Below, piece after piece: positions 10,873 to 33,765 of a DNA stretch of 33,765 nucleotides. The position numbers and the translations under genes are program-made. Position 1 is the first letter of the stretch, and each line of letters begins with the position of its first letter. The DNA comes from Fragilaria crotonensis. Its lineage: Eukaryota > Bacillariophyta > Fragilariophyceae > Fragilariales > Fragilariaceae. Below the pieces are notes generated by a model. The model made no database searches, was not told the origin of the DNA, and was given only the letters and a program-made list of their open reading frames with translations. The stretch is from NCBI GenBank assembly GCA_022925895.1, contig JAKSYS010000671.1:1-33765 (forward strand). The letters are read 5' to 3'.

Positions 10873-12051
10873 TTATTTTTTGACGTATTCGCCTCTCCAG
10901 CCTGGGGATATCCAATCAATGACTCCGCCCTCTCCGATCACAAGGTTAATCCAGTCTGTCGTTGACGTCCCAGTCCCAGCATCCGAATCATTCAACGCTT
11001 CGCCAACTGGACACGTGTTGTCAATGCGGGTAAATTTGTCAAAGTCGAGTCCAACCTTGGCCGCTGCTTCTCGGACAGCAGGCAAGGCTTCCTTCGGTAG
11101 CTGCGGTTCCTTGGCGTAGACGAACGACCCTTCATAGTTTCCTTGAAGGGTGTGACCCTTGTACGCCACAAGTTTGAATGGCGGGATGCCGTTGCTGCCG
11201 TCACTTTCCCCGACAATGTACCAATTCTCGTAAAACGACAAGCCATACATTTTTCCAGATGTATGCATGGTCCTCTTGGTTGGATTCGGCACGTTTTTCT
11301 GCGCAGCATCTACCAACATGTGTTCCTTGAGCTGATTGTTCCAAAAGCCACCTCCTGATTCTTTGGGTTGAAGGATGCGCAGGTAGATATCCATGTCAAG
11401 CTCAGATGCATCGTCGTTCGTAGCAGTAAACACGTTGGCTTGACAAGGAAACAGATCGTAATTTGGGTTCAAGCCATCAGTTTTGTACCACTTTCCAATC
11501 AATGATTTGGGATCAAAGTTCTTGACGGTATTGTCATAGCCTACATTTTCTGCCGAGTTATCAATGTTTTTGGGCACCTTGACACATTCGTTTTCTTCAA
11601 TGGTGCAGGATAGCCAATTGTTTAAATCTTCGGATCCATATTCGGCAAAGCATCTTGTCGCACACGATTGCTCCCCCTTGCACCTGCCCAAACAAGACAC
11701 GCCCTTGATGCCTCGTGGGTTGGAAAACAAATTTTTGGTTTGTTCGCCGCATTTATTGATAAAGCACCCCACGTCGCTCTGTTCCATCTTGTTCTCCTTG
11801 GCGTATTCGGCAAAGCCATCGTAGTTGGCAGTTGCTTGCGCCGGTGTGTCGGCGAAGGCTACTGGAGTGATGAGCGTTGATAGTCCAAATGCGACAGTCG
11901 CTAGTGCTTGGCCAGTCGTTTTCCAGACCTTGTCAAAATCATGTTTGGTGGATGCCGAGAGGTGCCGTGGTGAGAGTCCACTTTGAGGCTGTGGAATAAA
12001 CCCATAACAGGTTGCCACCAAAAGGACTGGCATTAGCAGGCATCGATTCAT
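10873..12051 (-). CDS. VDL: Violaxanthin de-epoxidase-like (VDE family, probably VDL) protein
   Basis: 392 residues, no intron. A signal peptide ends TCYG before FIPQ (Phe18 at +1, diatom plastid-type). A second hydrophobic segment (about 49-67) ending VAFA before DTP looks like a thylakoid-lumen transfer signal. Residues about 94-156 are a Cys-rich domain with eight cysteines. The lipocalin domain follows: LIGKWYKTDGLNPNYDLFPCQ (about 184-204), ENWYIVGES and GSFVYAKEP, ending with FTRIDNTC. VDE de-epoxidises xanthophylls in the acidified lumen. Compared from memory with plant VDE, Asp114 and Gln119 appear kept, whereas His121 reads Asn, Asp177 reads Glu, Tyr175 reads Phe, and Asp206 is not evident. 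That suggests one of the diatom VDE-like paralogues involved in making neoxanthin- or fucoxanthin-branch pigments, not VDE itself. It is convergent with the kinase gene, 106 bases away. Confidence 0.87.
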   Translation of the reverse strand: MNRCLLMPVLLVATCYGFIPQPQSGLSPRHLSASTKHDFDKVWKTTGQALATVAFGLSTLITPVAFADTPAQATANYDGFAEYAKENKMEQSDVGCFINKCGEQTKNLFSNPRGIKGVSCLGRCKGEQSCATRCFAEYGSEDLNNWLSCTIEENECVKVPKNIDNSAENVGYDNTVKNFDPKSLIGKWYKTDGLNPNYDLFPCQANVFTATNDDASELDMDIYLRILQPKESGGGFWNNQLKEHMLVDAAQKNVPNPTKRTMHTSGKMYGLSFYENWYIVGESDGSNGIPPFKLVAYKGHTLQGNYEGSFVYAKEPQLPKEALPAVREAAAKVGLDFDKFTRIDNTCPVGEALNDSDAGTGTSTTDWINLVIGEGGVIDWISPGWRGEYVKK

Positions 12052-12897
12052 CTTGGCGGGTGTTGTGCGGTTCGGAGATCGGATCGATCCCGATGGATGA
12101 AGTGTCAGCTATAATGAGGATGATAAAGTGATGATGTTGGTCGAAAGTTGAACTTCGTGACACGTACTTCCTTTTGTACAGTAAGCTACGTCGATTATCG
12201 TAGCACCGGGTACTCCGGTACCAATACTGTACCTGCACAAGATGTAGCGCATATTTGAAGATTTGATTTGGTACTGGTACCCTGACTGCGTCCAACCCGT
12301 CATGATGGGTTGGCATCGGCATTTCAAGAGCCGGACGGTCGGATGACCTTCCAGGTGCCAAACGAGCAGGCCGTGTTCATCGATCTTGCGTTGGTCTGTC
12401 CACGATTCCGCATTCCTTCAACCGGTAGCAATGATTGAGTTTGTATATATATATGAATACCAGCATGCTCCGATTTCCTGAACTACCGGTGTACGCAAGT
12501 ACCTGATACTCCAGTACCTGGTACTAGTACCTGGTACTGTGCTCTGTGCTCCCCGATTGATAGTGCTGTGTGTTGTCGTTCCGTATGATAGTAAGCATAC
12601 ACGCAGAATACTACCGGTAGTGCTCGTCTCGAGTACCGGGTGCCTGGTACTACCGGTAGTAGATACTGTAGTAGACGTATGCATTGTCAATTTAGAAAAA
12701 CGCGAGAATTACAGCTTCTTCTGCTGGACGTTGTAATGGGCGATTGAGGTCCATCACAAGGCCCGACAACTGACTCCTGAACACAGACAACAATCAAAAA
12801 CACTCAACAAGCATTAGGTTCTATATGACTTTCACGTGTCATTGAAATTTAGGTTGAGTTGTAATGTTGTGATCGTGAATTTGGATCAGTTGAGCAA
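12052..12897. other. Divergent intergenic region between VDE-like and AAE14-like genes
   Basis: 846 bases with the two promoters and no supportable gene. 12484-12545 and 12609-12668 are packed with short palindromes (CTGGTACTAG, CTACCGGTAGTAG, GGTACTACCGG). A short TATATATAT run lies at about 12443. Confidence 0.5.
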
Positions 12898-15997: not shown

Positions 15998-18801
15998 GCT
16001 TTGATTGTTGTCGGATAGGTAGAGTGTCAGTTATCGTTTGATGTGTTCAAGTGGACGACGGTTCTGAACAACTCGTTGTCCCTCCTCTACGGCCCACTGT
16101 TTTATTTTTATTTTCAGGCAGTTGGAGTGAGCATCCGTTTCGATACCACGATGTGGTGGATTGATTTCTTGATTGGCCACGAAGATTCGGCACGACCGTC
16201 GTCGGAATCCTGTAACCAACCGCAGCCGGCCCACTCTAGTAGCCAGCCATACGCTCTGCACGACACCGGCCAAATTCCGACATCGTACACTGTACAGCTG
16301 GTACTGTACATAGTTCTGAAACGCTCGGCTTGTGACAATGGCGTAACAATCGCCAAGTTGTTTTCCTCGTTGGGTCCTATCTTAGGAATTTAAGCCCCGA
16401 TTGTAACTGTTTAGGGGCTAGACCTTGCCTCTTGCCTATGAACGGGTGTGTGTATGGTGGTTTGCATGTCCGAAGCCTGTAGTAGGATGGTGTTTGAAAC
16501 CGGTTGGTTATCAAGTGTTGCAATTGAGGATGCTAGGTCATAGCCAGTACATGTGTTCATCAGTGTGACGGTCTTGCATTGGGATCAATGAAAGCAAATG
16601 CACGATTGACAGCACACCAGCACCACAACTTGAAAACGATGCGAATCCTGACGTCGTCGATATACGAGGTATCACATTTGTTTCCTCCATCAAGCAGCCA
16701 CAATGGAGAAAGCCCAGGAGGGACTCCTTCAGAATTGCTGAAGGCCGAGCGTTTCCTTCATATCTTGCATTAGCTACCCTATGTACTAGATGCTTGCCGG
16801 AGGGATAGTAGCTACCGGTAGTCCACTGGGCTGGCAGCCATTTTGATGCATGAGTTAAATTGCATTTTTGATGAAACCGTAGCATTTCCCTCCAAAAAAA
16901 ATGGAGTACTGCATACAAGATTTTACACTGGGTCTTTTTGGAGGCTTATTTTGGGGGAAATTCCTCATCCTATCGAAGAAAACCAGTGTACGCGTGGGAA
17001 AAAACCTTTGTATTGTTGTCTGGCAATCGCCGTCGAGTGTGTGTATCATGTCCTGATGATCATCGTGCATTGTAACCGTCGTCTGCGAGTTGAAAAAGAT
17101 CCTGGGACAAGATAGTCGTTTTACTCCGAGTACTGTACCAGGTACAGTAGGAGTTGCGGTCGCAGATGGTGTCGGTCGTTGAAGCGAAGACGATGAGTTT
17201 GTTGATTGATATCTCGTAGTAGAACCGAACTTTGATGTTGTTCTGTGGTGCGGGGGCTGTCACGATTGTGCTTTGGCATCGCTTTCCGTGTGTAGGACGG
17301 AGAGTGAGTGAGCGAGCACGCCATTGTTTTTCTTGGGCGTGTAAATGTGTGGATAGCAACAAGAGGCATTTCCAGAGTCTGTTCGTTTGCTCCTTTGCTC
17401 GCAGGATGTGATTTTCGTGCAGTGTCTTGGAGATGCGGAGGGTGTGTGTGTTTTTTGTCGGGTTGGTAGGGACATTTGGGGTGGTCGATACAGTTTTTGA
17501 TGGCATTGGCGTCGGGATTTTTAGAGCACGTACATAAATGGCGTTGGTTCTCTGTTGGATGTTTGCAGAATGGGCATTTTCTCGTTGTTTCCCCCAGTGG
17601 CTGTTGATCGCGAATGTGTTTCATGTGAGATATTTGCTGCTGAGGCATTTGCAGTTTTTCCCATAAAACATGCTCAAAAAAAGGCGAAACAAACGATCGT
17701 CATCATGTTCCCAGCCATGACGAACTTGTAGTCAAGAAAGTCAAAAACGCAATGGTAAGTCCTGAATTGTTGATCAGCAGTTTGTGCACTCCTGTCACCA
17801 CGAAACACTAAAACCATGCATTCTTGGTGCAATTGATTGTTGTCATGATTGACAGAATACGCGATGGAAGGTTCGAACTACTCCTACTAGCTAGAAATGC
17901 TAGCATAGTAGCAACTTTACCAGTACCTCTACTGAACCTACAGTAAGAGCATTATTTCATCCTCGGTGCACCCAACACCAAGCACCCCAGCCACAACGCC
18001 ACAACACATTATATGTACTACAAGGTACCTGGTACCACATCTTCCCTATGTACACACAATACATACTTACGCCATACGACATACAACTGGTACTACCGGT
18101 AGAGTACTATGAGCTGTGCATCAACCTTTAAACTCTGAATTCTGAATGCAGAGAGTCTGTGGTCTGTGGTACATCCCACGACCTTTTCGTCGACGTAAGC
18201 GGCCCTAAGTTCTCCAGAATACGATACACACTATCTATGTTAAAGCGGAAGTCGTATGTACTAAAAGGTATGATACGTACACGTACAAGTAGACCGTTCA
18301 AGGTTTAATCCCAGGAAAGTCCAGTAGCGAAGAAATTTAGCTATTTCGGTGCTCGTCTCAACCGTCATTTACCTGAATCAACACATTCAAGGTAGCCACG
18401 CACACCTTTAGGAAGGATCCAGTCCCACAAACCGTGCGCGTCGATTAACAAATTCGTACAGTATCTATGGTAGCAACGATTCAATCCCAGTAAACGATTC
18501 ACACATGCTAACAACGTCGAACTACATGGTGGCAAGTCACGTGATTTTTTTATGATGGAGTATGCATTCATGTATTTCTTCTGTCCTCGGTCACATGAAA
18601 CGCCAAATAGACTGTTTTCTTCGCCGTCGCTCATGAATGAGGGTTGAACTACTTTATTATGTACCTCTGGTACAATTACTTGTAGCTGAGAGCGTACAAT
18701 AGCATATCCAACTACCCAATGCTGTCACAACGAGACTAATTTTTCATCTCACAATTTTGCCCTTGTATCTTCTCTTGCCAGAGCAGAGCCAACTAACCAA
18801 A
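15998..18801. other. 2.8-kb gap upstream of the silicon transporter
   Basis: Apart from a decayed minus-strand coding relic (17121-17648), I find no gene. Several GTAC/ACCGGT palindrome clusters occur (16800-16820, 17126-17150, 18020-18110). The last few hundred bases are the probable SIT promoter and 5' UTR. Confidence 0.5.
17121..17648 (-). pseudogene. Relic of a mobile-element-like protein tail with CX2CX8HX3C motif
   Basis: The frame is open upstream of the ATG at 17648 and reads into HMKHIRDQQPLGE, then CPFCKHPTENQRHLCTC, a C-x2-C-x8-H-x3-C pattern. That pattern with a Glu in the middle is typical of C-terminal zinc-binding tails of reverse-transcriptase-type and similar repetitive proteins in eukaryotes. 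Downstream the likely coding continues in another frame (reading LRISKTLHENHI...KEQTNRLWK near 17440-17370), so the copy is frameshifted. No catalytic domain remains. The family assignment is a guess; decay is seen directly. Confidence 0.4.
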
Positions 18802-20381
18802 ATGGCAATCGAAACTCCCCTTCCGGACTTGTCCGACAACGTTACGTTGTTCAAGAGTATTTACTCTGTTGGACTCCTTCTCTTCTCCATTGCTATGATC
18901 ATGGGCCTGATCTTCACCGGCCAGACGAAGATCGCTCAGGATGTCAGTCCTATCCTAGCCTTCGTCGTCATTTGGTTTGCTATCATTTGGCTCACCGTGG
19001 TCGAGGGAGGTCAAGCATCGCTCGTTGGTCTAGCTCCGGTCAACCCAGAACTCTACAAGGTCTCGCACAAGAAAGCTCACTCCATCTGCAAGATCTGCTT
19101 CACTGGTGACAACTTTCACCGTTACCTTCTTGGTCGTCAATTCCTCGTTGTCTTGACTGTCTTTGCTGTCAACATGTCCGGCGGTCCCATCGATGGTGCT
19201 ACTCTCTGGGGTCTACCAGATTGGATCGTCAACATCTTTTTGGGTAGTGGTCTGGCCATGATTCTCTTCACCGTCATGTGTGGACAGCTCAACTCTGAAG
19301 TCAACGCTTCTCTCTGTATGCTTGACTACATGAACAACTGGATGATGTCCGTTACCTTCTGGGTTTCCATGGCGATCGAGTTCACAGGGTTGCTCCATGC
19401 CTCCTACGTTTGTCAGATGTTCGTTTGCCGTTTGGCCAAGCAGCCTGTGGAATGGCACGAGCCTCCACGAACAGGGTTGGTGGCCATTTTCTTCTGGTTG
19501 CGATGCGTGTTCTCATTCGTTGTTCTTGGTTTCGCGTTGGCAGTAACCTTTACAGCCTTGTTCGAGGGCAAGACAACTGTTTGGGATGGCATCCCTCCGG
19601 CCGCAGCCATGGTTATCTTCCTCTTTCTCTTGTGTGTTGTCGGTATGCTTGAAGCCATTCAAATTGCCTTCTTTGCGGTTACCAAGATTTGCAAGGCCGA
19701 CCGCGGTACCAACATTTTTGCCAAGAAAACCTGTCACTACCTCTTCCTTGGTACCGGCGAGAACTTGCCCAAGTTCATGGTTGGACGACAGCTCATGGTT
19801 GTGTCATGCATGTTCTTTGTGGCTCGAGTTACGAGTGTTCACATTGGCCCAGGCGAGACGAATATTTTTGGGTAGCTGACGGCGTCCAGAAGTTCTTCGA
19901 TACCGGTCTTCTTGGCGCATTGATCACCACAATCATCGGCTCCATCGCTTGGCGTCTTGTGGCCTCCTGCTTCCCAATCGCGTTCATAAGCTCCCCAATC
20001 ACGTACGTCTTTCTTCGCATTTGCCTCTTGTTGGAAGCCAGTGGTCTCTGCCAAGGAGCATGGGTTATTGCTGATATTCACAAGGCGATTGCTGGCTTCA
20101 AACGCGATGAAGAGTACATTGGAACTGCTGAAGAACGTGCTGGTTTGAGCATGAAAGACAACGACACCGTCCTTGACAGGGGTCCTGGAAAAATTGTCAT
20201 GCTCCCACATTTTATTGACCATGCTCCGGAGAGCTTGAAGGAGTTGTTGGAGTCCGACCCCAGCGTTGCGAAGTTTGTCAGTTCGTTGACTGTTGCGAAT
20301 GGAAATGGTCGAGATGACCGTGGATTTGGGACTGAAAGTTCCGATGAGCCTACTGGTGAGGGCAAAGAGGTTCTTGCTTGA
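18802..20381 (+). CDS. SIT: Diatom silicon transporter SIT (apparent 1-base frameshift)
   Basis: ATG at 18802 (an in-frame TTG at 18757 is not a start). The frame runs to a TAG at 19873 in GAGACGAATATTTTTGGGTAG; one base later in phase it continues as VADGVQKFFDTGLLGALITT to the stop at 20381. Adding one T or G to the T5/G3 run at 19865-19872 gives about 526 residues, normal for SITs. About ten hydrophobic segments are visible. The SIT signature pairs are present: EGGQ (68-71) with GRQF (111-114), and EAIQ (284-287, the second EGxQ with Gly changed to Ala) with GRQL (328-331). Other family landmarks include GLAPVNPELYK, CMLDYMNNW and MVVSCMFFVARVT. SITs carry silicic acid across the plasma membrane, coupled to Na+, for frustule building. 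The C-terminal 70 residues are a soluble tail. This gene fixes the host as a diatom. Confidence 0.95.
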
Positions 20382-20842: not shown

Positions 20843-21444
20843 CTACCACCTAAAAAGTGCCTGGAGCCGTTTCGACCGCTGGAGCCGTTAAACGGGGTTT
20901 TTTCGACTCCTCCTACAAATAAGTCACTCAATTTCAAGAAATTGATGGCCCTTGCTATGGCTGTTTTGATCTCTGATATGCAATACAACAAAGTCTTCTG
21001 GAGTGGTGAACAAACCGATTAGAAACTGTTGTTGTAAACATCACTGGAAGTTGAGGGCTTGCAATTTTTCACCCCTTCGGATTTTCACCCCATTGATCAC
21101 GTACCACCAATAGGGAAAAACTCTGTAGTGGTAGAAAACAAGTACAAAAAAGCATAGTTGAATGGGGTGAAAAATCTCAACCGATGCCTAAAAAATGTCT
21201 TAAGGTATGTATACATTTAAATGAAGTGCCTGGATCTGATAACTGCTAAAATGAGCGTCACAAGCTCAGTGACAACTTCATCAATTCTTGCTCTGGTAAA
21301 AGAAATGATTAATGTTCTGGATAGCCAAGAACATCACACAGCATTTGTAAACAAACAAAATTGAAATCAAAGCATTTTTGAGCAAGATATCTTTAGTCCA
21401 CATTGGGGTGAAAGTAACGGCTCCAGGCACTTTTTATGTGGTAG
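20843..21444. mobile_element. 602-bp non-autonomous element with 29-bp terminal inverted repeats (MITE-like)
   Basis: The left end (20843-20871) begins CTACCACCTAAAAAG and continues TGCCTGGAGCCGTT. The right end (21416-21444) is its reverse complement with one mismatch (C to A at the ninth base). The interior has no coding capacity and repeats the words GGAGCCGTT (20864, 20881) and TTTTCACCCC/GGGGTGAAA on both strands (21067-21420), giving sub-terminal inverted repeats. No exact target-site duplication is visible (flanks AGAGTTG and TAGTGTAGTTTG). The structure is that of a cut-and-paste transposon derivative; the superfamily cannot be told. Confidence 0.72.
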
Positions 21445-23967: not shown

Positions 23968-24502
23968 ATGGATATCATACCTCCAACTGCTGCTGTTGCT
24001 GCTGGGCGTGCAAGAGGCCAGCCAAACTTCAAGGTTGCAGAAGACGTGATGCTTGTTAAGGCGTATGTTGTCGTCACGACAAACGCCGCAATCGCCACCG
24101 ATCAGAATGGATCGATGTTTTGGGATAAGGTCCAACTCGGCTTCATCCAGCACGGTGGTGGTGCTGGACGCACTTCCGGCTCCCTCCCAGAACCGCTATA
24201 ACAAGACCATCCAAATGGAAGTCAACAAATTCATCGGTATGCTGACGAATACTCTCCGTGAAGATCATAGTGGATGGGCTCTTGAAGACTACACCCACGA
24301 TGCCAAGAGGAGGTTCCTTGCAAAGTTCCAGAAGCCGTTTAAGCATGAAATGTGCTACGGCGTCCTCAAGGCGGCACTTACGAAGTTTGCGATTGACAAG
24401 AACGGCCGCTGTTCATCCGCGTGTCCGGCGTGCAATTTTCTTTTGCGACGACGACAACGCACCGGCGCCTGATGCCAATGTCGATGTCAACATCAGAAGG
24501 TG
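23968..24502 (+). pseudogene. Myb/SANT-like DNA-binding protein, frameshifted
   Basis: From the ATG at 23968 the frame reads PNFKVAEDVMLVKAYVVVT then NGSMFWDKVQLGF, the pattern of the trihelix/Myb-SANT-like proteins that accompany PIF/Harbinger transposases and are abundant in stramenopile genomes. It stops at 24201, but one base on in phase the homologous continuation appears: QNRYNKTIQMEVNKFIGML, then HSGWALEDY and KHEMCYGVLKA. The shift fits one extra C in the CCC run near 24190. A second shift near 24400-24430 moves to a frame with CDDDNAPAPDANVDVN. No transposase lies next to it. It may be a real DNA-binding gene with sequencing errors, but two shifts favour decay. Confidence 0.6.
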
Positions 24503-24923
24503 GGATATGTTAACTATTTTTTTAAGCTTTGAATTGTTACCGGATAATGACATCCCTATCGCAAGTTCTTCACATGAATGTTAAGTGGCTAACACATATG
24601 TTGTCTCAAACATATATTGTATCTTTTCACAATATAGATGCAATATTATATTCACTATGTGACACATATTGTTACATATCAAATAGTGTATCAACATATT
24701 TGTTTAAATTAAGTACTTATAAAGAATCACATATGGCGATATCATGCTATATCTTGAACATATATTTTGTCGAGTTACCATATATATTTGTTCTTTACGC
24801 ATTGCGGTGTTCTCATTTCAGCATACATTGTATCAACCTAGCCATTTGTTTTCATACAATTCACCATTTTAATGCGTTTAATGAACTATGGCTGCCAGCA
24901 GCAGCTGTCGCAATCACAAGCAA
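24503..24923. other. AT-rich spacer between convergent Myb-like and A1 pseudogenes
   Basis: Contains many ACATAT/ATATTGT-type words and no gene. Its last 110 bases resemble the 3' flank of A2 (shared word order CATTGC...AGCCATTTGTTTT against CATTGC...AGCCATTTATTTTT), so part is a duplicated 3' UTR. Confidence 0.55.
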
Positions 24924-26672
24924 CTACGACTCATTTTCGTCATCCGAGTCCCATGCTGCCTCCACAGGTACCTTTGCTACCGCTGTTTCCAATGCATTGT
25001 TGTCAGCACCAGTACCGTCGTGCTGTTCTTGCCGCTCATCGCCACGGGCATTCTTCAATCCTGCCCGTGTCCTGCAGAATGCCAGCAGCTCACGTTCCAT
25101 GTCTTTTGACTGCGGGCATGCCCTGTTCTCTTTAACCATTATGCGCAGTGCATTGAACTGTCTTATTCCGTCATTGCTCCACCCACCATACTTGCAGGTT
25201 CCTTTTTTCTTTTCAGTGTACTTTCCCTTGTCTCTTTGTTTTCTTCGTCGTCATATTCTGCCCATCATCTGCTTCCGTTGGGTTGTCTTTGTCAACCAAC
25301 TCCGTGCCGTTTTCCATTTTCCAAATAGTTGTCAATCAGCAACAATGCAAGCGCTTCGTCACTTGTTGTCACCATTTTCGAATTGTCGCTGTGCCGCGCC
25401 TCCGATACAAGCATTGTTTTCTTCGCGATTCTCCACGCATTTGCACCACATACACTCCAAGAAGTTATTGAAGAAGAAGAAGGCCCTTTTCTCCCTGTCT
25501 GATGTTGCTGTCCTAAGCACAGAATTCTTCAAACGTGAAGAAGTCTTCGCCGCGTGTTTTGAAATCCTTATTGATTGCGCCCCGAACAATTCTGAGACCA
25601 GCTTGTTCACACGTACTCCTTTTCTGGTTCAACGCTGTATTGAAACATTTCGTATGTCAACTGAAAAAGGAAATGATTTTTGGCTTTTGATTTCAAGCAC
25701 CTTTGAAACGCCCTTGAACATAACTGGACTGTTAACAAACTTACATCGACGGAACAACTCGTTTTTGACATATATCACAATTCGATTTCTCACGTGCTTC
25801 TCTTCTCGTGGCGGCGCATTGGACTCATCGTCATTGCATACATCGTGCTGAACATGCGTAGACGACACCTTCTTCTTCGCCGTTGGAGTATCATTGTCAT
25901 CTGGAGGATCCTCCGCGCCTTCCTGGGCACAGTGGTTCAACTCCTGACCAAGACGTCGTCTTGCATCCATTGCTGTTTTCCCGACATCCCTAACAAGAAA
26001 CTGATCCATTCTGCGAACAGAGTCGTCATCATCTGACATGTCATGTGTCACCACGTTGTTGTCATCACCCGCATTACTTTTCCCCTCATCCTCCCTGTCA
26101 TCATCTGATTCGGACTCTTCATCGTCAACCTCTTCAAACTCTTCATCGTCAACCTCTTCAACTGAGTAAGAGGAGTCATCTATTTCCTCAGGAGCGTTCC
26201 TTCTGCTCACCACCACCACCTTTTTTGGTGCCACTTTCCTCCTCTTCTTCTTACCACGAGGAGGGACAACACGTCGTTTGCGTCCCTTTGCAGTGATCTG
26301 CACTGGGTCTGGGTTAACTGCTGTCGCGATCTGCACTGGTGGGTCCGGGTTAACTGCAGTCGTCGATGCTTTAACAGATTTAGCTGCAGATTTAGCCGCA
26401 GATTTAGCCGCAGATTTAGCCGCAGATTTAGCCGCAGATTTAGCGGCAGATTTAGCCGCAGATTTAGCCGCAGATTTAGCCGCAGATTTAGCAGCTGCTT
26501 TAGCAGCTTTAACAGCTTCAGCCTTTTGCTGTTCCGCCATCTCATTCCTCTTGGCTCTTGTTGTCGGTGTTTCAAGTTCGGCGTTCTTTGTATTGTTCTT
26601 GGTCGCGCGTGGAGGCGTGGTCCGAGTAGCCACTGAAGGTTGCTTCGTTGGAGGTATAGTTTTCTTCGGCAT
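24924..26672 (-). pseudogene. Module copy 1, gene A1: Lys/Ala-repeat protein, frameshifted homologue of A2
   Basis: The likely ATG is at 26672 (MPKKTIPPTK), because the following ATRTTPPR matches ATRTSPR at the head of A2. Next come a (AAKS)-repeat tail, basic runs GRKRR and RGKKKRRK, and an acidic Glu/Asp segment. The conserved domain starts as VKNELFRRCKFVNSPVMF (A2: VKTEVFRRIKFINSDAMF), but the frame ends at 25629. Homology goes on in other frames: FNTALNQKRSTCEQAG, then SDREKRAFFFFNNFLEC, and finally GKYTEKKKGTCKYGGWS to VEAAWDSDD, stopping at 24924. At least two frameshifts make this a pseudogene. Function is unknown; the N-terminus looks like a DNA-binding, histone-H1-like tail. Transcripts from A1 and B1 would start only 105 bp apart. 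Confidence 0.7.
26377..26496. repeat. 12-bp tandem repeat encoding (KSAA)n inside A1
   Basis: Ten consecutive units of GATTTAGCCGCA (first and last slightly changed). Read on the minus strand it gives repeated Ala-Ala-Lys-Ser, like the tail of linker histone H1. The unit is in frame, so copy number can vary without breaking the gene. A2 lacks it. Confidence 0.92.
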
Positions 26673-26777
26673 GAGGAATGAATCAAAATGTAAGAAGAAG
26701 CAAGCAAGGGTTAGAATAGCGGTCTCAGTGGTTGTATCAATTTGCAGCAAGTATGAGACGACTTGTAATTTTGGGTG

Positions 26778-27913
26778 ATGAATTCGTTGTTGTCCATGGC
26801 CGTTGTTCCGGAGGCGAGGAGTGCGTTCCGGCAAAGGTTCAGGACGGCGAGCGGGGTTGGGTGCAATGAATTCTTGTGTCGGACTCCGATCAGTGTCGTT
26901 GCCGAAGCTTTCGGATGTAAGCCGTTTCGACTGCGTTCGGCTGCCGACATGTTCCCGGACGAGTCTGGACTCCAGTCGGAGTTCCTCAACGAGTTTTACG
27001 TGATGGACGTGGTCCTCAACCGGGCTCCTTCGCCGGCCGCAGTATCAAACGGTTGTGGGAAGGCGGGGGAGTGTGGCGGTGTCCACTCTTCTGACGTCAA
27101 TTTTGATGAAGTTCGTCACGTCCTGTCCCGCAAACCAGAAGATGCTGGCCCTGCCATGGATTATTTCTACAGGACGGCGTAAGACCAGATGGAAGAACCA
27201 AGTTCCACGGTATGGCAGTGAAGCTTGGCCATGGTGTGGCCATCAGCTGGGATGGCAGAGTTGTCCGACACTGCACGTCTGTTTCCTGTCCGGATGGGAA
27301 GGAATTTGGGTTTGTGACCAGGGGGAGGGACTCTTCCTTCCGGAACCATCTTTACGGAACGTTCACGGCTGCAAAGGAGAAAATTGTGAAGGCTGGGCGG
27401 GCCTTGTGTGCTGCCGGTTACTGTCCCCCCGGGGCGCCCTCTCCGGCTGGCTCGAAGAGAGCTAGCAGGAAGCGACAAAAGAAGAGGGGGAGGAGACCCC
27501 GCCGGAGGGGCAGCCCTCGGGTTGAAGCCGGGGGTGCCGCGGCCACGGAGCCTGGTTGGCAAGCCGGCGGGTTGGCGTCTGCTGAGGCGGCTGTCGAGCT
27601 CCTGGACATCGGGCTGCCGCTGTGTTCGGAAGGTTCCGATGCCGTGCGGCGATTCCGTTCTGGCAAACGGGAACGTGATGTTGGTGATTCGCCGTCCCGT
27701 GCGGACGGGCGGGAGGACGGAGCCATTGGTGGCGGTGGTGGTGAGCTGCATTTTGGTTCTCGAAAACCAAACGTGGCGGTGAGTGCCGGAACACCCTGCG
27801 TGGGTGGACGGAAGGGAGATGGACGTTCAGCCGGTGACAGCATCAGAAGGTGCGAAATGTTTAGTCTTGTTTCACATGGTGAGACATACGTATATATGAC
27901 AACCGTTGGATAA
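26778..27913 (+). pseudogene. Module copy 1, gene B1: internally deleted homologue of B2
   Basis: ATG at 26778. The first part, LLSMAVVPEARSAFRQRF, CRTPISVVAEAFGCKPFRLR and NEFYVMDVVLNR, follows B2 closely up to DYFYRTA (27179). The next bases, in another frame, read RPDGRTKFHGMAVK and GHGVAISWDGRVVRHCTS, which match B2 about 390 residues further on. Some 1.16 kb equivalent to B2 31998-33155, including the HxD motif, is missing at a junction near 27180. NHLYGTFTAAKEKIV and a Lys/Arg-rich tail follow. The distal part (27420-27780) is markedly GC-rich beside AT-rich neighbours. If translated, it would be a short protein of the first 135 residues. It cannot be a full B enzyme. Confidence 0.75.
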
Positions 27914-28235
27914 CTAATAAACAAATATTTTGATATCAACAAAAAATGTTTGATTGTCACACGTATGTATTTTTATATGACAATATGTACAACATATACT
28001 GTTGTAAACCACTGTCTTTGATTACTCATCACACTTTCAATAAACAAATTTGTTTAGTTTCACCACATATGTATGGTCGCTTCTCAAACTAATTGTTCAA
28101 CTAAGTATTCAGTACCCACCAAGTATATTCTTGTTTGAAAATTGAATTGTCATTCGCATTGCTACTTCTAACAACATGTATTGTTTCCGATAAGCCATTT
28201 ATTTTTACGAACGCCGCATGTTTTGACACCAGTTC
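27914..28235. other. AT-rich spacer between convergent B1 and A2
   Basis: No gene. It has ACATAT/TATATGACA words and (A/T) runs similar in kind to 24503-24923. The stretch 28168-28224 resembles the 3' flank of A1. Confidence 0.5.
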
Positions 28236-30095
28236 TCAGTCGTCTAAGTCCCATGCTGCTTCAACAGGTAATGCCTCTGTTGCATCCAATGCATTTCCAG
28301 CACCCTGTTCATGTTGCGTGTCACCATCATTGACAAATCCCGCCTGAGCCATGCAAAAAGCCAGTAATTCACTTTCCATAACTTGTGCATGTTCGCTTGC
28401 TCTGTCCTCATGTACAAGATGGTAGAATTCATTGAAGCGCCTGGTTCCTTCACGGCTCCACCCACCATACTTGCAATGTCCACTTTTATTTGCCGTGTAC
28501 TTTCCCATGAGTCTTTCTTGTCCCTTCTTCTTCCTCCTCTTCCTTGACCTTTCGTTTTCCGCTCCCGTATTGTTATCTTCGCCGTCATTATCTGCAAGTG
28601 ACTCGGCATCCGCATCCCTTTCCATTGTTGTTTCTGTATCCGCAGCCCTCGTCAGTGAAGTCGACCACTTATCAATATAATTATCAATCAACAACAAACC
28701 AAAGGCTTCATCGCTTTTGGTGACAAGTTTGCGACCATCATCAGCTGCATCTGATACCAACATCAAGACCTTTGCCTTTCTCCAGTACCGTGCTCCACAC
28801 ACGCATTCCAAGAACGAGTCAAAGAACCAGAAGAATGCCCTTCGCTCCCTATCTGTTGTGGCTCTCCTGAGCTTACAGATTTCATCAATCGTAAAAAACT
28901 GTTCACCACGTTCTCTGAACTCAGTAAGGGTCCTCCTGACAATTTTTTTACCCGCTTGCTCACATGAACTCCTCTTTGTGTTCAAAGCATCATTGAAAGC
29001 ACTTTCATACAGCATCTGAAACCTTAAATGCTGGTGTCGTGGTACATTTTCGAAATCAATAACCAATTGAAATGCCTTTTGGAACATAGCATCACTGTTT
29101 ATGAATTTAATGCGGCGAAAGACCTCTGTTTTGACAAACTGTGTAATTCGAGTTGCAACATGTTTCTGTCGTTTTTTCACCGATTCCGTCTTCGACATGC
29201 CTCGAACCGAAATGTCACCGCCAATCTTCAGAAGCGACGCCTGGGTATATTTGTTTGGTGAATTTGACGTACCTTTCTGCTGTGAACTACTGTTCAACAC
29301 CTCACGTTCATCTGCAGCAGGTACATGTGTGGCCGCCCTGGCATTGCCCCGTGTGAATATCTCCATGCTGCTGTCATCTGATCCAGCAGATGACAAGTCT
29401 GAAGCATGTTTGTCGTTACCACCAGCATCGTTGTTGGGCGCCCCCTTGTCACCATCCTCGTCAGTGATGGATTCCTGTGCAGCATCCTCATTGTTGTCCT
29501 GCTCCTCATCATTGTCATCATTGTCCTCCTCATCATTGTCGTCATCCTTCTCCTCATCATCGTCATCAGCATCCTCATCGTCATCCTCGTCATTGTCCAT
29601 ATTTTTGTCATCCTCATACTCGGAATCATCATCATCGTCTACTTTCCTTGGTAAAGTTACAATAGTAACATTCGTTTCCGATGGTTTCGTCTTCCTCCTG
29701 ACAACACCAACACGTTTCCTCGTCTTATTCACCTCGACTGGGGGGGCGACAACCTCAGGCGTTTTCACCGGTTCCTCACTTGATTCTGGTGGTGCTTTTC
29801 TCTTGCCACCACCTGTACGTCGTGTCTTCTTTTGCGCAACGGTGTTGTCGACGCCAACGTCGACATCCCTGACATTTGGCTGCCCTCCGTTTTCAGCAGC
29901 TTGTGGTGGGGCGACCTCTGGCGTCTTCACAGGTTTGAGGGCGACTTTATCTTTTACAGCAGTTGTTGCACGAACCTGTTTTTCCTTGTTTCCCTTCCCA
30001 TTCTTCACGTTTGTTTTCAGAAGCTGCGGTGTCCTTTCCACTCTCTTGGGTGGTGGTTTGCGAGGTGAAGTCCGAGTTGCTGTGGCACCGCTCAT
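28236..30095 (-). CDS. Module copy 2, gene A2: uncharacterised protein with basic/acidic N-terminus and CKYGGWS domain
   Basis: 619 residues, ATG at 30095, no intron needed. Residues 1-150 are basic and Pro/Lys/Arg-rich (TSPRKPPPKR, KKTRRTGGGKRK). Residues about 155-250 are strongly acidic (long Asp/Glu runs). From about 300 the protein is globular-looking: FVKTEVFRRIKFINSDAMF, NTKRSSCEQAGKKIVRR, ATTDRERRAFFWFFDSFLEC, then DEAFGLLLIDNYIDKW. A further basic linker with RSRKRRKKK leads to GKYTANKSGHCKYGGWS and the C-terminal VEAAWDLDD. A1 preserves these same blocks, so they are the conserved core. I recognise no named domain. The composition suggests a chromatin- or DNA-associated protein. It is divergent from B2, 1.27 kb away. 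Confidence 0.7.
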   Translation of the reverse strand: MSGATATRTSPRKPPPKRVERTPQLLKTNVKNGKGNKEKQVRATTAVKDKVALKPVKTPEVAPPQAAENGGQPNVRDVDVGVDNTVAQKKTRRTGGGKRKAPPESSEEPVKTPEVVAPPVEVNKTRKRVGVVRRKTKPSETNVTIVTLPRKVDDDDDSEYEDDKNMDNDEDDDEDADDDDEEKDDDNDEEDNDDNDEEQDNNEDAAQESITDEDGDKGAPNNDAGGNDKHASDLSSAGSDDSSMEIFTRGNARAATHVPAADEREVLNSSSQQKGTSNSPNKYTQASLLKIGGDISVRGMSKTESVKKRQKHVATRITQFVKTEVFRRIKFINSDAMFQKAFQLVIDFENVPRHQHLRFQMLYESAFNDALNTKRSSCEQAGKKIVRRTLTEFRERGEQFFTIDEICKLRRATTDRERRAFFWFFDSFLECVCGARYWRKAKVLMLVSDAADDGRKLVTKSDEAFGLLLIDNYIDKWSTSLTRAADTETTMERDADAESLADNDGEDNNTGAENERSRKRRKKKGQERLMGKYTANKSGHCKYGGWSREGTRRFNEFYHLVHEDRASEHAQVMESELLAFCMAQAGFVNDGDTQHEQGAGNALDATEALPVEAAWDLDD

Positions 30096-31363
30096 ACTAT
30101 GGAATGCAACAATGTTGTGATGGATGATAACACAAGAAGTGGTAGTCTTGTTTGAAGATTGTGTTTCGTGAATTTATTGTACTCGCATTGTGGTGGTGTT
30201 TCTACGCAAATTTGTTGACAACTCAGTGTTATTGAATGCGGGTGTACTTTTTGAATGGCATGAAGCAACGTTTGTATTCCATCATGTATACTTACATTTG
30301 ACGTCATACCAACATGTGTTGCGTTTGAATGTACATTTTTTGTCTCTTCTGAACACCTGCAGGCAAATGTTTGATGCCCTTCTATGTATATGTACATTGA
30401 GAAACAGTCAAACGTTGAGTACAGGTTTTGCTGCCCTGACCGACTCTCAGTCGTGTTGCAGTACTACTACCTTCCATTGCATGTACTTGTACTAGTGGGA
30501 TCAACGCAGCTTTGCTTGGTAGTAAATGTACGTACAACCTACTGGTAGAGGTCTAATTTTGCAAGAATTCGCGGGGATGTCAGTATATATATTAAAATTC
30601 ATCAAAATATACATAACTGGAATGGTCGTATGTGGTGAATGAAATTTGATGTACATAGGTAGTGCACGCAATCGACAAAAGATTAATTATGCCATCCTAC
30701 TACGTACAAGGTAGTACAATTGATGTGTCCCACTTTCATTGCAAATCATACTCATATACATGGATTGTTAGTACAACATAAAGGGTAAATATACTATCCA
30801 AGAATTGTGATTATGTACACACATGATGTCTATGTTGCCCGATACGGTTCGTATGCAAACTCAACTTAAGATTTCCCTTAAGTAATTGGGTCCCAATTTT
30901 AGTACATATTATACGCTAGATGCAGCGTAGAAATAATTCCGTCTAGACTACTTCTGTGCATTCTGCAAACCAAAATATTGCAACTTGCTTCTTTCATGTC
31001 TTCGCAAGTCCTTATCGTCATTGCCGTCGGATCGTTCTCGCAGAATCGATAGCCAAAGGTCGCTCCCCAGCCAGAAAGCGGGTTGAGTGATCGTTGTGTT
31101 GTCAACTTTGTGCTCGCATCGCCCTTCGTGGTGGTTGTGAGGTTCTGAAAAGGCATTTTGCAACCTTCAGCTGTCCAACAGTAATCATCGTCGCCGTCAG
31201 ATTATCCTCGCGGAATCAATAGCCAAAGGTCGTTCCCCAGCCAGAAAGCGGGTTGAGTGATCGTTGTGTTGTCGATTTTGTGCTCGCATTGCCCTTCGTG
31301 GTTGTTGTGAGGTTCTGGAAGAGACGTCGCGCGGCCTGTTTCCTGTCAGACGTTGATGGTAGT
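30096..31363. promoter_or_regulatory. Divergent spacer between A2 and B2, with duplicated 139-bp block
   Basis: The left 900 bases are AT-rich with no gene. The right end carries two direct repeats (listed separately), the second ending 41 bases before the B2 ATG. Promoters for both genes must lie here; no TATA box is certain. Confidence 0.45.
31014..31322. repeat. Two imperfect 139-bp direct repeats upstream of B2
   Basis: 31014-31152 and 31184-31322 match at an offset of 170 bases; over 31041-31152 I count about 10 differences in 112. The shared core includes CCAGCCAGAAAGCGGGTTGA and CGTTGTGTTGTC. Read on the minus strand, both keep an open frame around TTQRSLNPLSGWG, except for a TGA at the 3' edge of the second. 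Confidence 0.88.
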
Positions 31364-33676
31364 ATGAAGCCTAATCGACGTGGTGACTACGGGGTGCTGG
31401 CTGGGACTGGGAGCATCATAACATCTCCCTGCACAACGTCGGTTGCAAATCTGGGGAGAACGGCGAGAGTTTCTGAGTCCTTTATTGTTGACAAGGAGGA
31501 AGATGCTAAGAAACAACTTCCCTCCAATCGGGATGAACGCAATAGTTACCCAACGCACCGGCGATTGGTGGCATTGTTGTCGATGGCGGTTATTCCTGAG
31601 GAGAGGGCTTCTTTTTGTGAACGCTTTTGGGAGGCGAAGGGGGAGTACCAGATGGGAGGGCGCCGTAGGACCGCTGCAAAGCTATGGAGGGGACATCGGA
31701 CCGTTCCAAACCTTTGCAACACTCCAATCAGTTGGATTGCGAAGGCGTTCGAATGCGAGCCGTTCCGGCTGCGCTCGGCGTGTGACATGTTTCCATGCGC
31801 TGGGACGGAGTCCGCATACATGAACGAATTCTACGTAATGGATGTAATTTTAAACCGGTCTTGTTTGCCACCTGCTTCTGAGGTTAAGAAGGATGGCGGG
31901 CCTACCCCCATTGACCCTGATGTTGTTCGTCCGTTCAGATGTTATGAACCGGATGATTTAAATCCCGAGAAGGATTACTTATTCAGGTCTGCGATCCTGT
32001 TCCTACCTCAGTGTGGCGTCTTCTACTGCCACAGGGAGCGTCGCAGGGGAGACGTCGGTGTGCCGGGTACATTCATTGCCCACGACATGAGCTGGCTCCG
32101 TCTGCAGAGAAATATAGAGAGGAGGGTTGATGGTGTTGTTGAGGTGTCTTATGACTTCGGCAGTGATAGCTTCGTTAAGTGTTTCTTTGCCGAAAGGAAG
32201 GGGCCTCGTTTCCATGTTGAGGACCACTACATATCTGCCTGGAGAATCTCTACTGGGAAGTTGTCCCGCACGAACCTCCAGAATCGTGTGATGTACAGGG
32301 CCATTCAGTGCCGTGACACTGACGGTCCCATGTTGGCACCGGATATCCTGGATGGGGTGGAGTTTCCGGGCTGCCCTCGGGATTATCTTGCAGCAGACTA
32401 CACACGTCGTCTTGCCGTGGCCAACAGCGCCAGGAAAGATGGGCGCCACTATGTCCCTGGATGTCTCCATTATCAGCTGCCTTTATCCTGTTGGATAATC
32501 GATCCGACGGTGACTCATTGTGTTGACATCATGGTCGATGTTGACAGGGTTGGTGGAACACTGAACCGTCAGTCCGTTGTCATGATTCGTAACGTTCGGG
32601 AGATTGAAGCTGACGATGACCTTATCGGCTCACTGCGCAGTGTTACTGCCCACAACGTCGTGCTTCGGACGCACGCAAGAAAGGGGACTGCGAGGGCCAG
32701 GGGTGGCGACGTTGGAACAATGCACGCAATCGGCACGCACGTCGAACTCGATAGGACCACCACGAACCCATACATGGCGAACGGAAGGGTTCCCGAGGGT
32801 CTCCTCCGGCAACTGGTTGTTAACCTCGCTATCATTGGGAGTAACTGCTTTCCGCAGGTGTATGCTGTGCTAAGGGATACGGAGGGGGATTCTGGTCTCC
32901 TTCCAATTGAGCCAATGAATGGCGAAACGGAGGTAAATCCTGTCGGACTTCCTGGTGTTGACAGGAAAATGAATGGGGAGAAGGAGAAGAAGGTGGGTCG
33001 CCGAGTTGGATACACCATCGACATGAGCGTCGACCTTGCAAATTCTTCGCATTTGGATGTGCACGATGCCTCTCAGGGCTTCAGTGTGTGGTCCGAAGAG
33101 TTCCCTGGCCGTGCCACAAACTGGTTCTTCGTCCTCCCAAACCTTCATGGGCAGAGACCTGACAGGACAACCTTCCGCGGCGTGGCTGTGAAGCTTTCCC
33201 ATGGCATTGCCATCAGTTGGGATGGGCGTGTTGTACGACACTGCACTTCAGTTTCCCATCCAGATGGGGTGGATGGTGGGAGGCTTGGTGGAGTGGGTGC
33301 CGCACAGTTGGAAAACCATCTGTATGGAACATTCACCGCTGCTAAGGAGCGAATTGTGCAGGCGGGACGAGCAGTGTCTGCTGCAAACTATGTCCCTTCC
33401 GATGTGCTGCCTTCTGATGATGACTCTGATGCAGGGCAGAAAGTTAAGAGGAAGAGGTGCCGAAAAAAGAGAAGGAGGGGTAAACGAGTGCACACAGGGG
33501 TTGTTTGCGGTGATGCCACGGCTTCGGATGATACGGGTGCTGGAGGTGATCCACTGGGAATTGATTGTGAGGAATCAATTCTATCACGAGTGATGCCGGT
33601 GGCTGCTGCAAATGATCACACCCCAGGGGTGACTGGTGTTCCTGCTACCCTACGGATGGATTCTTTGAATCCGTGA
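31364..33676 (+). CDS. Module copy 2, gene B2: large protein with candidate Fe(II)/2OG-dioxygenase-like C-terminal domain
   Basis: 770 residues from the ATG at 31364; an upstream in-frame TTG at 31253 lies inside a repeat and is not used. The N-terminal half (LLSMAVIPEERASFCERF, CNTPISWIAKAFECEPFRLR, NEFYVMDVILNR) is shared with B1. The C-terminal third reads SSHLDVHDASQGFSVW, WFFVLPN, then LSHGIAISWDGRVVRHCTS and NHLYGTFTAAKERIV. His563-x-Asp565, His613 and Arg622 (or Arg625) have the order and spacing (50 and 9-12) of the HxD...H...R iron/2-oxoglutarate site. A basic Lys/Arg tail (about 695-715) follows. The apparent stop at 33674-33676 may be premature: in the next phase the frame stays open to 33762 and ends RIPRKRRW. 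Dioxygenase activity is inferred from motif spacing only. Confidence 0.65.
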   Translation: MKPNRRGDYGVLAGTGSIITSPCTTSVANLGRTARVSESFIVDKEEDAKKQLPSNRDERNSYPTHRRLVALLSMAVIPEERASFCERFWEAKGEYQMGGRRRTAAKLWRGHRTVPNLCNTPISWIAKAFECEPFRLRSACDMFPCAGTESAYMNEFYVMDVILNRSCLPPASEVKKDGGPTPIDPDVVRPFRCYEPDDLNPEKDYLFRSAILFLPQCGVFYCHRERRRGDVGVPGTFIAHDMSWLRLQRNIERRVDGVVEVSYDFGSDSFVKCFFAERKGPRFHVEDHYISAWRISTGKLSRTNLQNRVMYRAIQCRDTDGPMLAPDILDGVEFPGCPRDYLAADYTRRLAVANSARKDGRHYVPGCLHYQLPLSCWIIDPTVTHCVDIMVDVDRVGGTLNRQSVVMIRNVREIEADDDLIGSLRSVTAHNVVLRTHARKGTARARGGDVGTMHAIGTHVELDRTTTNPYMANGRVPEGLLRQLVVNLAIIGSNCFPQVYAVLRDTEGDSGLLPIEPMNGETEVNPVGLPGVDRKMNGEKEKKVGRRVGYTIDMSVDLANSSHLDVHDASQGFSVWSEEFPGRATNWFFVLPNLHGQRPDRTTFRGVAVKLSHGIAISWDGRVVRHCTSVSHPDGVDGGRLGGVGAAQLENHLYGTFTAAKERIVQAGRAVSAANYVPSDVLPSDDDSDAGQKVKRKRCRKKRRRGKRVHTGVVCGDATASDDTGAGGDPLGIDCEESILSRVMPVAAANDHTPGVTGVPATLRMDSLNP

Positions 33677-33765
33677 GGCCAATGGCAGCTGCAGTGTTTA
33701 CTGATTGCAGTCGGACCATGGATCCGATGGACTACAGGATACCGAGGAAGCGGAGGTGGTGAGTG

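Follow-up and report, generated by a model that had tools for sequence, protein, structure and literature searches.

Genes A and B of the diatom Fragilaria crotonensis: probable accessory genes in a Plavaka-type transposon, gene B also on an apparently MULE-type element

The window analysed here, 33,765 bp long, is the entire contig JAKSYS010000671.1 (C637 here) of the 62.1-Mb, 881-contig assembly of the diatom Fragilaria crotonensis, and two genes, A and B, occur in it twice, in the order A1(-), B1(+), A2(-), B2(+) at 24.5-33.7 kb. A sequence-only reading had taken the pair for an unnamed two-gene element. It now seems probable that A and B are instead accessory genes of a diatom Plavaka-type cut-and-paste transposon, related to CACTA/EnSpm, which has a transposase gene of its own, gene C. 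The transposon has defined ends, 2-bp target duplications, near-identical dispersed copies and an empty site; gene C is homologous to the Plavaka family, and the genes bear the mark of purifying selection. Moreover, B is not bound to A, since homologues of B also sit, without A, on an element that appears to be of the Mutator-like element (MULE) type. A diatom thus appears to carry a Plavaka element with the signature of fungal PlavakaB and, in addition, two conserved extra genes of no recognised family.

Layout of the window

The features that concern A and B in the window are as follows (TIR, terminal inverted repeat).

24491..27840: element 1, an older, internally deleted element of putative Plavaka type, left part up to element 2; boundary common to other copies
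24491..24502, plus strand: left TIR of element 1, CATCAGAAGGTG
24924..26672, minus strand: A1, decayed gene A; start codon placed by eye; Ala/Lys/Ser repeats in the N-terminal part
26784..27840, plus strand: B1, broken gene B, deleted internally at two places and truncated at the tail by element 2
27841..33765: element 2, a younger element of putative Plavaka type inside the B1 tail; reaches the contig end
27841..27852, plus strand: left TIR of element 2, CATCAGAAGGTG
28236..30092, minus strand: A2, open gene A; start codon placed by eye
31014..31320, plus strand: tandem repeat between A2 and B2, 137 bp, period 170
31364..33676, plus strand: B2, open gene B; start codon placed by eye

The gene order, the divergence of each A from its B and the protein homology between copies, all described in the sequence-only reading, were borne out by the list of open reading frames (ORFs), a repeat scan and tblastn, and its view of the first copy as decayed and the second as open holds as well. 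By tblastn, A1 is 32% identical to residues 334-645 of A2 at 24939-25808 on the minus strand, and the ORF of A1 at 25629-27044 stops short of the conserved part. B1 matches B2 on the plus strand at 26784-27179 (42% identity) and 27176-27427 (67%). Both A1 and B1 are broken; A2 and B2 lie in frames open from stop to stop over 645 codons (28239-30173, minus strand) and 817 codons (31223-33673, plus strand), respectively. The tandem repeat lies just upstream of the open B2 frame and overlaps its start, and in the complete copies on contigs C30 and C85 a comparable array, its period about 176, shows up as self-matches.

Element 1 has a boundary at 24490/24491 that recurs in the copies on C538, C393, C829, C85 and C251, and relative to C251 two internal segments, each of about 1.3 kb, are missing from it. 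At the point where element 2 begins, C251 and C393 run on uninterrupted, with GCCGGTGACAG and then CTTGACTTTCGG, which is an empty site for element 2. This points to element 2 having jumped into the B1 tail of the older, internally deleted element 1, and the tandem look of A1-B1-A2-B2 arises because one element is nested in the other. Just left of element 1, at 23968-24472, ends a multicopy protein fragment with 33 genome matches and no Pfam match; it resembles a further gene borne on a repeat and may have been cut when element 1 inserted.

Ends, gene C and the Plavaka assignment

Complete copies bearing A and B have the architecture TIR-A(-)-B(+)-C(-)-TIR, start with CATCAGAAGGTG and finish with CACCTTCTGATG. 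When flanks were aligned, as the sequence-only reading had proposed for finding ends and target duplications, the boundaries proved sharp: among 26 A-side ends, picked because copy-to-copy homology stopped there, all begin with CATCAGAAGG (24) or CATCACAAGG (2). Flanking sequence is present for 25 of them and comprises 23 distinct flanks, since C474, C487 and C674 have one flank in common; these three are alleles, duplicated contigs or copies within another repeat. Four copies were read at both ends, with lengths of 9885, 9183, 10036 and 10093 bp, and all four have 2-bp target duplications (GA, GA, TG and AT). An element without inverted repeats was considered and excluded, both TIRs having been read in these four complete copies. 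The copies on C30 and C85, at different sites, are 99.3% identical over 8945 bp.

The terminal 12-mer CATCAGAAGGTG occurs 99+94 times in the genome versus 4+3 times for the reversed pattern. A scan for inward pairs of this 12-mer covered 100 of the 193 sites, with all 68 A loci compared, and 25 pairs less than 15 kb apart were found among the sites listed. Six of these 25 contain both A and B and span 9.2-11.0 kb, and three contain A alone. The other 16 hold neither gene: eleven span 1.9-3.8 kb and are taken for non-autonomous derivatives, one spans 6.7 kb and four about 11.7 kb. The last four, on C124, C153, C183 and C265, have their ends 11.66-11.73 kb apart and enclose no match to A or B; they may be a sister family whose accessory genes differ.

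Both genes recur widely in the assembly. Gene A has at least 85 matches (68 loci) and gene B at least 69 (55 loci), far more than chance would give; both are lower bounds, as scoring took in 68 of 302 first-look candidates for A and 55 of 535 for B. A divergent A lies on the 5' side, 1.05-3.5 kb away, at 29 of the 55 B loci, so the divergent pairing that the sequence-only reading had proposed to look for does recur, within the same genome. Two further A-B neighbourhoods within 8 kb are arranged otherwise, one on C22, where B lies in the MULE-type family, and the other involving a second A near the C85 element.

Between B and the right end, the complete copies contain gene C, on the minus strand and at least 900 codons long. 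It matches the Pfam family PF18759 (Plavaka) in the C251 and C30 copies with 33.1 and 30.2 bits, respectively, above the curated cut-off of 26.3 bits, and where two subfamilies were compared, the longest stretch conserved at the DNA level, 2 kb at 76%, lies in it. In the whole genome, 80 places match the Plavaka family at E<=0.001. On the 3' side of 20 of the 55 B loci, no more than 8 kb away, lies a convergent match to Plavaka; 17 of these loci also have A, and one of the 20 matches, at a distance of 7.8 kb, is possibly unrelated. Moreover, 18 of these 20 matches begin at profile positions 39-44. At the A-side end of the C30 element, an adjoining ORF on the minus strand is weakly similar to gene C (25.7% identity) and has no Pfam match; this suggests that the C30 element is next to, or nested in, a second and more distant Plavaka-like element.

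Fungal PlavakaB elements are described as having CATCA..TGATG termini and 2- or 3-bp target duplications (PMC12730594, Kojima 2025). The complete diatom copies have these termini, a 2-bp duplication and a Plavaka transposase domain, and on these sequence features the element is classed as Plavaka-type, matching PlavakaB in ends, duplications and transposase domain. Some PlavakaB families of fungi also bear an extra dioxygenase gene, and all TET-positive Plavaka elements of fungi are reported to fall in PlavakaB (PMC12730594). In contrast, the element described here has a diatom host and two accessory genes, A and B, and B has no detectable similarity to TET/JBP. Among algae, a paper on Ectocarpus describes KDZ and EnSpm elements in that brown alga and mentions giant EnSpm elements with accessory genes in red algae. 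No report of Plavaka in diatoms was found in the literature searched, a scope that excluded Repbase and subscription papers.

Gene B on a second type of element

Homologues about 40% identical to B2 are found on C87, C131, C532, C22 and other contigs without A, and these carriers have a common terminus, GGGGAAATTACAATAT, and the TIR GGGGAAATTAC. The terminus occurs at 57+42 sites with at most one mismatch, against 1+2 for the control, and 27 inward pairs lie less than 15 kb apart. Nine of these enclose a B locus, seven of them spanning 7.0-8.3 kb and the other two 4.2 and 12.8 kb, and with all 68 A loci compared, gene A lies inside none of the 27. In the copy on C532, which is 7532 bp long, the TIRs show no difference over the 60 bp compared, and the copy is flanked on either side by a duplication of 9 bp, TTTACATTA; on C87, eight of nine flanking bases are alike. 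Target duplications of MULEs are described as 8-11 bp long (PMC6446971), a range into which the C532 duplication falls. The putative transposase of C532 has a SWIM finger above its cut-off (24.6 bits, cut-off 19.6), while in its broken frame two further domains fall short, MULE reaching 25.2 bits against a cut-off of 27.6 and DBD_Tnp_Mut 18.0 against 25. In the C87, C131 and C22 copies, PF02902, a divergent Ulp1-type protease, is above cut-off. Judging from these features, the second carrier of B appears to be a MULE-type element, of a superfamily unrelated to Plavaka. Thus, one accessory family seems to ride two apparently unrelated superfamilies. The idea that B loci without A are failed detections was rejected for nine of the 55, which belong to the MULE-type element with no A inside.

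In a tree of B with 22 rows, rooted at the midpoint only, four MULE-type copies form one clade (100/100), which groups with the copies on C137, C76 and C526 (100/100); in another group (100/98), three Plavaka copies with A are joined by three copies not placed with a carrier. The tree fits at least one exchange between the superfamilies, the number of exchanges not being fixed by it. Next to the B copies on C471, C137 and C76 lies no more than a weak match of Plavaka type (E 1e-7, with a profile made for this analysis), and Pfam gave no match for such neighbours in the two of the three that were tested. B homologues at C592, C873:62757 and C108:111361 were placed with neither carrier; at C873:62757, an Ulp1-type ORF lies 3' of B, unlike the arrangement in the MULE-type family.

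This distribution resembles the pattern in fungi behind the proposal of transposon-borne DNA demethylation enzymes, where TET-positive transposons likewise show one accessory family across unrelated superfamilies in one genome (PMC12730594). However, the gene there is a TET/JBP dioxygenase and the superfamilies named in the abstract do not include MULE, whereas B belongs to no recognised family and its carriers are Plavaka and, apparently, MULE-type. VANDAL MULEs with the anti-silencing protein VANC (PMC10398659, PMC5735166) likewise bear an extra protein, on elements of the same broad type as the second carrier of B. Unlike B, for which an anti-silencing role is only proposed, VANC is sequence-specific and its action has been shown in Arabidopsis; the two proteins are unrelated by the searches made.

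Possible roles of A and B and competing explanations

All three genes seem to have been maintained as proteins. Pairwise ratios of nonsynonymous to synonymous substitution (dN/dS; Nei-Gojobori, own script) are 0.16-0.35 for A (five pairs), 0.13-0.27 for B (five pairs, with one more saturated) and 0.22 for C (one pair, with two more saturated); against the C30 copy, A2 gives 0.22 and B2 0.13. These values are rough, since dS exceeds 1 in several pairs, and A, B and C appear to be under purifying selection.

CACTA/EnSpm elements have a transposase plus a helper protein (TnpD and TnpA), CA..TG ends and short target duplications. The diatom element is similar in combining a transposase with a possible helper in one element and in its CA..TG ends and short duplications; it differs in that A has no similarity to any Pfam family and in that gene B is additional. 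In the proposed mechanism, the C protein would bind the CATCA ends, excise the element and insert it with a 2-bp stagger. A, which in A2 comprises a basic/acidic N-terminal part and a conserved C-terminal domain of about 310 amino acids, may be a helper that binds DNA or chromatin, much as TnpA serves CACTA elements. B would be a 2-oxoglutarate- and Fe(II)-dependent (2OG-Fe(II)) oxygenase with nucleic acid or chromatin as its substrate, and would counter host silencing. DNA C5-methyltransferase matches are present at 13 places in the genome, so silencing by methylation is possible. An anti-silencing role has been proposed for the TET/JBP genes of fungal transposons (PMC12730594).

The sequence-only reading had named B a possible oxygenase, a sensible guess: in an alignment of 18 copies, some of them near-duplicates, H610, D612 and H673 (numbered in the 817-codon frame) are invariant in 18 of 18, in the C-terminal part of this protein of about 770 amino acids. 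Their HxD...H arrangement is the metal-triad pattern of 2OG-Fe(II) oxygenases, although the motif alone is weak evidence. In addition, by eye, a stretch G-x-x-I-x-W-x-G-x-x-x-x-H of B is spaced like GDVLFFKGNEYKH of the Naegleria TET-like dioxygenase (NgTET).

Several results weigh against the Plavaka reading with its protein roles. The window itself contains neither gene C nor a right end, gene C being absent as the contig runs out 89 bp beyond B2; by analogy with the complete copies, gene C of element 2 probably lies beyond the contig end. At 23 of the 55 B loci there is no nearby A or Plavaka match; nine of the 55 sit in inward pairs of MULE-type ends, and several others fit neither carrier. 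The assembly may hold uncollapsed alleles, so the copy counts are possibly inflated. For A, sequence searches of Pfam and the PDB gave no match beyond hits at E 0.03 or worse, nearly all within its low-complexity part. For B, Pfam gave no match for any of the 18 copies and a PDB profile search was empty. Comparison with NgTET by hhalign scored 15.1, inside the range of 100 shuffles (median 13.9, maximum 23.6). Tet_JBP (PF12851) found nothing in the genome at E<=10 (in one control genome it gave a signal, though below its cut-off). An AlphaFold2 model of the B core from the two window sequences was unusable, with a pLDDT (predicted local distance difference test) of 31 and a pTM (predicted template modelling score) of 0.20.

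Two further searches add little on either side. The 2OG-FeII_Oxy_6 family found nothing in the genome, nor in any control genome, and its silence is therefore no evidence of absence; viral contigs searched with the B alignment gave 29 pattern matches, with no relative among them. In no search did B resemble Tet_JBP or a solved TET, and we do not place it in TET/JBP. As neither sequence libraries nor the fold model back it, the view that B is a 2OG-Fe(II) oxygenase, which relies on sequence pattern, is kept at about one half. Nothing relevant on diatom transposons with a dioxygenase was found in the literature searched.

A credible competitor, which we rate somewhat below even, keeps the same Plavaka transposon and takes B for a structural or DNA-binding subunit of transposition, with HxD...H residues that bind metal or are there by chance. 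The failure of Pfam, the PDB and hhalign to find similarity to any oxygenase family suits it, and so do the 66 invariant columns of the B alignment, among which three invariant residues prove little, and the conserved blocks well outside the HxD region. However, H610 and H673 are the only invariant histidines in the alignment, and B occurs on two types of element with unrelated transposases. That Plavaka and MULE-type elements of one genome both bear B suggests a helper of use to transposons not related to each other, more than a component of a single transposase's machinery, and is less expected of a transposase-specific subunit. A fuller version of the oxygenase view, in which B is an unrecognised, transposon-borne 2OG-Fe(II) oxygenase family that acts on DNA or chromatin and has been passed between Plavaka and MULE elements as a defence against silencing, a diatom equivalent of the TET/JBP genes on fungal transposons, is possible and held only tentatively. 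If B does prove to be an oxygenase, the idea of transposon-borne DNA demethylation could be tested independently in diatoms; if it does not, a protein of about 770 amino acids common to CACTA-like and Mutator-like elements still needs explaining.

One may argue that A and B form a mobile or selfish module of their own, independent of any transposase, as the recurring divergent pair and a window that shows A and B alone might suggest. This is very unlikely: homology between copies runs past B, through C, to the right TIR, and the six end pairs that hold both genes enclose 9.2-11.0 kb, not A and B alone. Least probable of all is that a pair of host genes was simply duplicated, segmentally or in tandem, to which the head-to-tail order A1-B1-A2-B2 would correspond, but at the DNA level element 1 and its copies on other contigs are 92-98% identical, against a protein identity of only 32-67% between A1/B1 and A2/B2, and the insertions lie at differing sites, with an empty site present. 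Thus, where the sequence-only reading had left the choice between a mobile and a segmentally duplicated unit, the ends and target duplications favour mobility, and the nested insertion and the empty site speak against duplication.

The rest of the window contains other features of interest. A 29-nt inverted repeat, 20843-20871 and 21416-21444, has arms that are 97% complementary and 544 nt apart, and is possibly a small non-autonomous transposon. In addition, a silicon transporter gene, a sign of a diatom host, lies at 18703-19872 (PF03842, E 1.9e-138), and a VDE lipocalin-domain protein is encoded at 10873-12105.

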